NCBI GenBank assembly: GCA_033584155.1
Contig: CP138355.1
Span: forward strand, 124,001 to 188,000
Reading direction: 5' to 3'
Length of the DNA stretch: 64,000 nucleotides
Source: Candidatus Electrothrix scaldis
GTDB taxonomy: Bacteria; Desulfobacterota; Desulfobulbia; Desulfobulbales; Desulfobulbaceae
Position 1 is the stretch's first letter, and the number at the start of each line of letters is the position of its first letter. Below the pieces are notes generated by a model. The model ran no database searches, had not been told where the DNA came from, and saw only the letters and a program-made list of their open reading frames with translations. Position numbers and translations under genes: made by a program. Shown piece by piece: positions 4,810 through 7,457 of this stretch.

Positions 4810-5436
4810 ATGGAAAAGATATCCATCACAAGAGCGCTAGTTGAATTAAAAACTCTGGAAAAAAGAATATATAAAACTTTGAAGAACCTTCAGCCTGTAA
4901 TCGTACTGATTGGAAACAAACCAGAAGCGGGAATTACGAGCAAAGAGGAATTTGAAAAAAGTGTGAAGGCATCATATCAAAGTCTTACCTCACTTATCGA
5001 GCGAAAGAGAAAAATTAAATCCGCTGTTGTCAAATCGAATGCGGCCACTGAAATTTCTGTAGCAGGTGAGAAAATGACAGTAGCAGAGGCCATAGAGAGA
5101 AAAAATTCCATCGAAATAGATAAAAATATCAGAAAAGATCTGGCCACAAAATATTCCGAAAAAATCAAAATGATCGAAAAGCATAACGACAGCATTCAAA
5201 ATCAGTTGTTCAAATTACTGGAGGCCACATACTCAAAGCCGGAAGCAGAGATTGCAAAAGAGGACTATGATAGAATCGCTATTCCATTCAAAGAGAATAA
5301 CGAAGCACAATCTTTTGATCCTCTTGATATAAAAAATGCGTTACAGGAGATGGAAAAACAGATTGATCTATTCGAGTCAGAAGTAGATATTGCTCTGACA
5401 GAATCAAACTCAAGAACAGAAATCGAAATCCCGTAA
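4810..5436 (+). CDS. Hypothetical helical protein
   Basis: A 208-residue, almost wholly helical and lysine/glutamate-rich protein with no signal peptide or membrane segment. The plan (helical LKTLEKRIYKTL, then LIERKRKIKSAVVKSNAAT, then MTVAEAIERKNSIE) resembles the small DIP1984/DUF6847-type helical family, but the match is only by pattern. A good AAGGAG box lies before ATG 4810. It begins 53 bases after cmk, but its lower GC content and codon use differ from cmk, suggesting it is a later arrival. No function is assigned. Confidence 0.7.
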   Translation: MEKISITRALVELKTLEKRIYKTLKNLQPVIVLIGNKPEAGITSKEEFEKSVKASYQSLTSLIERKRKIKSAVVKSNAATEISVAGEKMTVAEAIERKNSIEIDKNIRKDLATKYSEKIKMIEKHNDSIQNQLFKLLEATYSKPEAEIAKEDYDRIAIPFKENNEAQSFDPLDIKNALQEMEKQIDLFESEVDIALTESNSRTEIEIP

Positions 5437-5478
5437 ACTTAATGAGTTCTCTTTTCCTATCAATAAATTAAGGGGTAC

Positions 5479-5793
5479 GGCTGACCATACGTAAGTCGCT
5501 AAAAATCAGACCTGGCTCAGGTGAGAGCACGCATAGAGGCCGGTGGTATTTTATACCGTGCAGGTTCAAGTCCTGTCTCACGTCACGGCGTGAGTGGCGG
5601 AATTGTAGACGCGCCGGTTGCATCTTGCAGTTCTGAAAGCTCAAAACCTAAAGGTCAGAAATCTTCTTTCAACGTTCAGAATTCAAAGCGTGAAAGTTCA
5701 GGACCCAAGCCTCAAAGTTTTATCAAATCCCGGATTCAAGTACACAGGGCCTCTGAATTTGCCTTGCGACGCTTCCGGGCTGTATGGTCAGCC
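5479..5793. repeat. 315-bp segment bounded by a 12-bp perfect inverted repeat
   Basis: GGCTGACCATAC at 5479-5490 recurs inverted as GTATGGTCAGCC at 5782-5793; the match does not extend beyond 12 bases on either side. The repeat encloses the permuted tRNA-Leu-like halves. It could mark the ends of a small non-autonomous element, or be chance, which is unlikely but possible at this spacing. No flanking target duplication was seen. Confidence 0.4.
5534..5619 (+). pseudogene. tRNA-Leu-like halves in permuted order (3' half, then 5' half)
   Basis: Bases 5534-5583 read as a tRNA-Leu 3' half: TAG plus AG as anticodon and 3' loop, GCCGG stem strand (5539-5543), a long variable arm with stem GGTAT/ATACC, a T-arm GCAGG-TTCAAGT-CCTGT (5560-5576), then acceptor strand CTCACGT (5577-5583). 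After only four bases, 5588-5619 reads as a tRNA-Leu 5' half: acceptor GCGTGAG, D-arm GCG/CGC, then CCGGT. The two acceptor strands pair over all 7 positions and the two anticodon-stem strands over all 5, so the halves belong to one tRNA. Against function: the D-loop lacks one of the two invariant guanines, U33 is doubtful, and no CCA is encoded. It is probably a relic or a rearranged tandem, possibly a structured RNA. Confidence 0.5.
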
Positions 5794-5895
5794 GATCTTT
5801 GCACATACTCGGAAAAAAACTAACCACCGGAAGGCATTTCGGAAGACGCCCTCCTGCCCGAACCCCTCCGCATTGATGTACAAGGTCAGATCATT

Positions 5896-6945
5896 ATGCT
5901 CCAACAACTTGATATTAAAAACTTCACTGTTTTTCAAAATGCCGACTTAACTTTTGCGAACGGTCTGAATGTCGTTATCGGAGAAAACAGTTCAGGAAAA
6001 ACGCATATCCTTAAGCTTGCCTATTCCATTATAGCTGCCAGTGCAGAGGCTGAAAAAAAGTTCCGCCAGGAAGCCCCGACCAAGAGTATTTTACAAGGAA
6101 AACTGGCAGACAAACTCCATCATGTTTTTCGGCCAGAAAGGCTTGGGCGACTGGTACAGCGAAGGCAAGGGCGGGAGCGTTGCACGATCAAAGCTCAATT
6201 CGCAAAAACATCGTTAAATACAAGCCTTAGCTTTGCCTCACAAAGCAAATCAGAAGTAAAAGTGGACCTTCTGCCGAAAGTGTGGGCAGATAAACCGCCG
6301 GTGTACCTGCCGACCAGAGAACTTTTAAGCTTGTATCCCAATTTCATATCTGTTTATGAAAATCATTACCTTGAATTTGAAGAAACATATCGGGATACCT
6401 GCCTGTTACTGGGAGCCCCACCTCTCCGGGGAGCCCGAGAAAAAAGAATTGCCGAGCTGCTCACCCCTATAGAGGATGCTATGGGAGGCAAAATTTCTTT
6501 AGATAAAAACGGACGATTTTATCTCCATATCTCAGGCAGAGGAAAGATGGAAATCCAGCTCGTTGCCGAGGGATTACGAAAAATAGGTATGGTCACAAGC
6601 CTGATAGCCACAGGTTCATTACTCGACAAAGGGTATCTCTTCTGGGATGAACCGGAAACAAACCTTAATCCCCGATTAATCAAACTGGTTGCCGAGGCTA
6701 TTTTTCGTTTATGCTGCAACGGTATTCAGGTTTTTATTGCAACGCACAGTCTGTTTCTCCTGAGAGAGCTAGAAATTCTCTCGCAGCAAAAGACGTTTAA
6801 TACAGTAAAAACCAAATACTTTGCCTTGGGTCGTTCCGAGAGCGGAATCACCCTGCAACAGGGAGAAAGTATAGATGATATTGATCCTGTTGCGGCCCTA
6901 GATGAATCCTTGATGCAGTCGGATCGTTACCTGGCGGAGACTTGA
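5896..6945 (+). CDS. AAA family (ABC/SMC-like) ATPase, putative defence protein
   Basis: A 349-residue soluble ATPase of the AAA15/AAA21 (RecF/OLD-like) group. It has [14 protein letters not shown] at the start, Walker A GENSSGKT at 29-36, a signature-like region near 222-235 ([13 protein letters not shown]), Walker [13 protein letters not shown] near 250, and the switch histidine in [13 protein letters not shown] near 282. There is no Toprim domain, unlike OLD nucleases; the effector is probably the next gene, whose start overlaps this stop. The ATP-binding parts are intact. An anti-phage or anti-plasmid role is inferred from architecture and from pairing with a nuclease. Confidence 0.8.
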
Positions 6946-7457
6946 ACATGTTGGAAATTCAAGAAGGTAAACTTACCTTCAGCTTTCCTAATGATTGGAG
7001 AGTAAGCAAGTATGACGACTGGGCGTTCTACAGAAAACAATTTTTAAAACTGACGGATCCAAAGGCTGTTGATATTCTTGCCGTAGATCCTCACAACCGG
7101 CAGGCTTGGCTCATTGAAGTAAAGGATTATAGAAAACATCCAAGAACAAAGCCGATGGATTTACCGTGGGAAATAGCCATCAAGATGCGTGATTCATTGG
7201 CAGGTCTTGCCTGCGCCGGAGTCAATGCCAGCGACACGAAGGAACAGCAATTAGCCCATGAGGCTGTTACAGCGAATAGTCTCCGCGTGGTACTGCATCT
7301 GGAACAGCCTGCAAAGCATTCAAAACTTTTCCCGCGCGCGATAGACCCGGCTGACATACAACAAAAGTTAAGAAAGCTGGTAAAAGCGATTGATCCCCAT
7401 CCCTTGGTCATAGAAAAAGCAGTCAACTTAGACAGGGTACCTTGGTCTGTTCATTGA
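6942..7457 (+). CDS. PD-(D/E)XK-like nuclease partner of the ATPase
   Basis: A protein of about 171 residues, starting at TTG 6942 or more conventionally ATG 6948, overlapping or abutting the ATPase stop (6943-6945). The segment from residue 39 has the restriction-fold pattern: Asp44 in VDILAVD, then Glu59-x-Lys61 in WLIEVKDYR, with hydrophobic strands on both sides. The C-terminal part ([10 protein letters not shown], then a helical tail) is of unknown fold. I infer a small nuclease whose activity is controlled by the neighbouring ATPase, as in other ATPase-nuclease defence pairs. I do not match the pair to a named system. Confidence 0.65.

Follow-up and report, generated by a model that had tools for sequence, protein, structure and literature searches.

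The window, by which we mean the whole 64,000-nucleotide stretch of DNA analysed here, carries at positions 5478-5794 a structured non-coding RNA that very probably belongs to a class of RNAs associated with the phage protein family phrog_1491. On balance, we favour the reading that it is a phage-derived member of this class, which would form a ribonucleoprotein with its phrog_1491 protein and act as a tRNA-mimicking decoy or scaffold. The RNA starts shortly downstream of a phrog_1491 gene and comprises a long closing stem, a tRNA-Leu-like arm with its halves in permuted order, an A-rich linker and a conserved 3′ core. The gene and the parts of the RNA are as follows.

4810-5436, + strand: gene for a 208-amino-acid helical protein of the phrog_1491 family (PHROG E 2.6e-54)
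5478-5794, + strand: structured non-coding RNA of ~320 nt, starting ~40 nt past the gene at 4810-5436
5478-5491, + strand: 5′ strand of closing stem P1, 14 of 14 pairs with 5781-5794
5510-5522, + strand: hairpin P2 (ACCTG-GCT-CAGGT); the version in the related genome G125 is ACCCGGCTCGGGGT, a compensatory change from U-A to C-G
5534-5583, + strand: tRNA-Leu-like 3′ half (61.3 bits with covariance model R1, whose training set includes the window)
5534-5536, + strand: anticodon triplet TAG, in the 3′ half
5539-5543, + strand: 3′ strand of the anticodon stem, 5 of 5 pairs with 5614-5618, one of them G-U
5545-5557, + strand: variable arm, 5 of 5 pairs
5560-5576, + strand: T-arm, with 5 of 5 pairs in the T-stem
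5577-5583, + strand: 3′ strand of the acceptor stem, 7 of 7 pairs with 5588-5594, one of them U-G
5584-5587, + strand: CACG loop, closing the acceptor stem and separating the two tRNA-Leu-like halves
5588-5619, + strand: tRNA-Leu-like 5′ half, with the acceptor 5′ strand at 5588-5594
5597-5612, + strand: D-arm, with 3 of 3 pairs in the D-stem
5614-5618, + strand: 5′ strand of the anticodon stem, in the 5′ half
5634-5725, + strand: A-rich linker with repeated AAGNTCAAAG-like words, common to the phage homologues; homology with G125 extends to ~5695
5694-5782, + strand: conserved 3′ core, matched by covariance model R2 (49.2 bits, E 7e-10)
5729-5733 and 5775-5779, + strand: core helix (AATC-CCGG ... 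CCGG-GCTG), which covaries
5781-5794, + strand: 3′ strand of closing stem P1, for which own and swapped partners were compared across phages

Much of the preliminary description of this locus holds. The 3′ half, the CACG loop and the 5′ half follow one another in permuted order where it had placed them, its counts for the acceptor stem (7/7) and the anticodon stem (5/5) were reproduced, and the GCA at 5531-5533 is able to pair with the TGC at 5619-5621. The inverted repeat that it saw bracketing the whole is also present, although it measures 14 bp and not 12 bp; this repeat is the closing stem of the RNA and covaries across phages. The conserved 3′ core, which is part of the same RNA, was absent from that description. 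The fold of 5470-5800 has a z-score of -3.0. Neither ARAGORN nor Rfam at its gathering cut-offs reported the tRNA-Leu-like domain at the window locus.

The gene at 4810-5436 lies directly upstream of the RNA on the same strand. Homologues of phrog_1491 are found in 709 phage records, including T5 ORF080 and Bacillus phage G gp530, and carriers amount to one of 57 relatives and one of 395 sampled genomes of the phylum. AlphaFold predicts a helical coiled-coil for the 208-residue protein (pLDDT 93.8); its nearest fold in the PDB, with borderline scores, is that of an uncharacterised Corynebacterium protein (3kdq), and a Pfam search of the protein returned no family. The label ‘tail fiber’ attached to phrog_1491 is doubtful because of the helical coiled-coil fold, the constant RNA partner and a neighbourhood without tail genes: in the regions seen, phrog_1491 genes do not stand beside tail genes and are often accompanied by tRNA and nucleotide-metabolism genes.

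In nearly every phage locus fetched, the phrog_1491 gene is followed by an ORF-poor stretch of several hundred bases. A 3′ core of the form AAATC-N4 ... N4′-GCTG pairs exactly in 67 of 85 distinct phrog_1491 loci, and 19 different four-base strands occur among these 67. The stricter AATC form of the core is present in 60 loci, compared with 8 of 1700 shuffles. Two-sided changes in the core helix fill 61 cells, against 15.8 in shuffles, a count that arises partly by construction as the loci behind R2 were selected for core pairing (and those behind R1 for acceptor pairing); for this reason shuffles, swapped partners and untrained loci served as controls. Right after GCTG comes the closing strand, whose 5′ partner strand terminates in CG. 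Own partners pass in 76% of cases and swapped partners in 6.9%; with the 5′ strand fixed beforehand, which leaves no choice of partner, the corresponding figures are 32 of 43 and 184 of 1806.

R2, the covariance model of the 3′ core, was built from 45 phage RNAs with the window excluded. With one of its five pairs set one column off (45-101, which should be 45-102), the model matched 82 of the 85 phrog_1491 loci, including 37 of the 40 outside its training set, and always on the strand of the gene. It returned no match on 94 control loci, which total 758 kb and among which are tRNA arrays and Ro60-linked RNAs, and in the 64 kb of the window its only match is that at 5694-5782. The window RNA has the features of the class, namely the 3′ core, the closing stem 3′ of GCTG and a same-strand position downstream of phrog_1491. 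Rfam scans of the window and of 30 related loci found no family at the 3′ core, and no description of such RNAs was found in Rfam 15 or in the open literature, subscription journals and preprints being largely out of reach. The class is apparently undescribed, and its association with the partner gene and the permuted arm likewise appear to be new.

Most members of the class are without a tRNA-like arm, and tRNA mimicry can therefore account for no more than part of what the class does. Of 86 loci, 12 have a perfect T-arm at a distance of 97-143 nt downstream of the stop codon, as against 0.9% in shuffles. The T-arm precedes the D-arm, which is the permuted order, in the window, in Erwinia phage Ea35-70 (L374), in loci L388, L395, L426 and L442, and in G125; L409 and L447 have the normal order, with tRNAs called by ARAGORN within the RNA; and a T-arm alone is present in L411, L427, L428 and L444. 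A search for a permuted T-arm with 7/7 acceptor pairing and a D-arm, the D-arm rule of which excludes the Leu type, gave nine matches in 2.1 Mb of loci and none in a shuffle. Given this difference and the constant position of the T-arm across the class, the permuted arm is not a product of chance. The simplest account is that the tRNA-like domain is joined to the RNA either via its acceptor stem, giving the normal order, or via its anticodon stem, giving the permuted order, so that permutation reflects which stem is opened and not tRNA splicing. If this is true, phage RNAs borrow tRNA domains as modules that can be grafted by either stem, and such grafting would readily explain how permuted tRNA-like structures arise where no permuted tRNA gene exists.

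The window RNA is very probably not the source of a decoding tRNA. The host genome (5.09 Mb, one contig) has a complete set of ordinary tRNAs, among them a normal tRNA-Leu(UAG), complete with CCA, at C1:4290534, and every Leu and Ser tRNA gene inspected there has an encoded 3′ CCA. As the preliminary description had noted, the window arm encodes no CCA and is missing a conserved G of the D-loop, which reads AATTGTAGA, while that of the host tRNA-Leu(UAG) reads AATTGGTAGA and is one G longer. The arm also lacks U33, which neither flank is able to supply. With a full tRNA set present and the D-loop G, U33 and CCA missing, the window copy is both unneeded and ill-suited for decoding. It is thus highly improbable that the locus is a true permuted tRNA-Leu gene, whose precursor would be circularised and cut to yield tRNA-Leu(UAG), for all that the two halves are complete and complementary and the acceptor, T and anticodon stems intact; moreover, the tRNA-like domain is one optional arm of a larger RNA, and at the equivalent place homologous RNAs may hold a tRNA of another type, one in normal order or no tRNA. 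The anticodon is a usual site of group I introns in tRNA-Leu genes, and flanks of ~55 and 175 nt lie at the anticodon here. A circularly permuted group I intron around tRNA-Leu, giving a circular or spliced tRNA, can nonetheless be given next to no weight: Rfam detected no group I signal at E values up to 10 (a rotated core could escape such a scan), and homologous RNAs without any tRNA halves still retain the flanks. A relic of a tandem tRNA duplication, the preliminary description’s other suggestion, was rejected, since homologous RNAs of unrelated phages carry the permuted arrangement at the same position and the bracket covaries. Its further alternative, a tRNA-mimicking RNA, stands. The order of the halves is like that of the circularly permuted tRNA genes known from algae and archaea (PMC3978253); unlike those genes, the window arm is an optional element inside a larger RNA and very probably does not serve decoding.

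Bacterial Y RNAs of the YrlA type provide a closer parallel to the arm. In such RNAs a permuted tRNA-like module sits on a Ro60-bound stem and tethers Ro60 to its partners. YrlA, which carries a tRNA-like domain, has been proposed to inhibit a tRNA nuclease competitively (PMC7790460). The window RNA resembles the YrlA consensus in its permuted tRNA-like module with a closed acceptor stem, and differs from it in its closing stem and 3′ core, and in having an anticodon stem and a long variable arm. The Rfam YrlA model (RF02553) scores 13.4 bits on the window, far under its cut-off of 69, and a blastn search matched Brevundimonas jumbo phages; these two matches drew attention to permuted tRNA-Leu-like RNAs situated immediately upstream of Ro60 (TROVE) genes. 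A pattern scan of genomes and viral contigs, followed by an acceptor-pairing filter, gave 13 sites with 7/7 pairing. Ro60 adjoins several of the pattern-search sites and none of 12 tandem-tRNA control records, which shows that permuted tRNA-Leu arms do exist in Y-like RNAs. RNAs of this kind beside Ro60 or in the same locus were seen at L306, L308, L309, L310, L311 and L312, a set that comprises jumbo phages and several bacteria and in which some members have an anticodon stem and a variable arm. Searches with Pfam, with a single phage Ro60 and with a profile of seven Ro60 proteins detected no TROVE/Ro60 gene in the host genome or in its relatives within the genus. For this reason the Y RNA lead explains the architecture and not the window locus, and a Y RNA working with Ro60 was rejected for the window. 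That the window RNA is itself a Y RNA of this type is improbable, in spite of the shared architecture and of the similar RNAs beside Ro60 in Brevundimonas phages and several bacteria, as its 3′ core is missing from the Ro60-linked RNAs and tied to phrog_1491 instead.

The nearest kinds of RNA to that of the window are these tRNA-mimicking Y RNAs and the GOLLD and ROOL RNAs of phages. The latter are likewise structured, non-coding and encoded by phages and prophages, in many cases close to tRNA islands. GOLLD has been proposed to enclose linked tRNAs (PMC12286853). Rfam scans matched GOLLD or ROOL neither in the window nor in any of 30 related loci. In contrast to GOLLD and ROOL, the window class is about half the size or less and shows permuted as well as normal tRNA arms; for ROOL no protein partner has been identified, whereas the window class consistently adjoins one protein gene. 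A homo-oligomeric cage is a further feature of GOLLD and ROOL. In Brevibacillus phage Jenst, a skipping-rope RNA (RF02924; L366 3625-3702) lies between the phrog_1491 gene and the class RNA; it is a motif of 80 nt, separate from the class RNA, and is absent from the window and the other loci scanned.

The relatives of the host yielded one further copy. A DNA search of 37 relatives (G125 not included) found no homologue. When R1, a covariance model of the permuted core trained on loci chosen for their acceptor pairing, was run over 258 genomes of the order, the window, itself in the training set, scored 61.3 bits and G125 43.4 bits; G125 is the one real relative, nearly all other top matches inspected being ordinary tRNA-Leu genes. 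G125 belongs to the same family as the window genome and to another genus. The two RNAs can be aligned over ~220 nt, at 77% identity and E 1.6e-39; hairpin P2 differs by a compensatory change and the acceptor stem by a two-sided one. The gene preceding the RNA in G125 is 76% identical to that for the 208-residue protein. The 3′ core is missing from the G125 copy, which is cut short by a contig end and a transposase-like ORF, and the T-loop of this copy is degenerate; for these two reasons it may be non-functional. A gene for an RtcB-like RNA ligase (L356 7587-8954) is situated upstream of the gene-RNA pair in G125.

The host bacterium probably acquired the gene-RNA pair from a phage. It is conceivable, if rather unlikely, that the window copy has since decayed, a formerly functional phage RNA now being a non-functional remnant beside a defence locus. 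Such a history would fit the finding of just two copies among the 74 genomes of the family, one of them truncated, the deletion in the D-loop of the window arm and the near absence of phrog_1491 from the phylum. Against it, the window RNA keeps all 14 closing pairs and the core helix, and the 208-codon reading frame is intact and 76% identical to that of G125.

On the favoured reading, that of a functional ribonucleoprotein, the RNA at 5478-5794 would be made beside the small helical phrog_1491 protein and would probably work with it, the binding of the two being predicted from their adjacency. The 14-bp stem closes the RNA, whose 3′ part is the conserved core, and a tRNA-like arm is grafted into the 5′ half. 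The window version of this arm is a tRNA-Leu held by its anticodon stem, from which the permuted order of its halves follows. The arm might then imitate a tRNA towards a tRNA-binding target, and the RNA, as decoy or scaffold, could shield translation in the infected cell, for instance from tRNA-cutting defences. This protective function is a tentative proposal, and its main alternative would be a GOLLD-like scaffold holding tRNAs. Likewise less likely than not is the wider suggestion of a widespread, unnamed phage ribonucleoprotein system, consisting of an RNA and its own protein and shared by most of the phages with phrog_1491, which number in the hundreds and include T5, in which whole tRNA-like modules, normal or permuted, would be swapped to match the tRNA-targeting threats of the host. 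If this is true, T5, which is among the best-studied phages, and hundreds of others hold a conserved structured RNA that standard annotation has overlooked, beside a protein doubtfully labelled as ‘tail fiber’.

Several other elements were seen in the course of the analysis. Downstream of the RNA, the window encodes an ATPase (5896-6945) and a PD-(D/E)XK-like nuclease (6942-7457). These match HEC-02B and HEC-02A of PADLOC, with E 5e-166 and 6e-67, and are candidates for a defence system. A link between the RNA and this pair was rejected, as homologues of the pair elsewhere have no such RNA upstream. In the viral contigs L206, L259 and L289, an outer tRNA-like structure has a permuted tRNA-Leu-like domain nested in its anticodon arm. 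Permuted tRNA-like domains are also present in phage tRNA arrays at L250 980-1110 and L280 ~4321 (reverse strand), inside a stem in which the motif ACAGCAA is repeated; they possibly represent another RNA class, without Ro60 or phrog_1491. The order of the halves is normal in tRNA-like genes at L058 1490-1700 (G035) and in L059 (G013), which have long insertions in the anticodon arm and no CCA and were missed by ARAGORN. Lastly, the host genome (G000) contains tRNA-Glu-like remnants at C1:3574422, C1:4980287 and C1:4999237, with intact T-arms and damaged 5′ halves.
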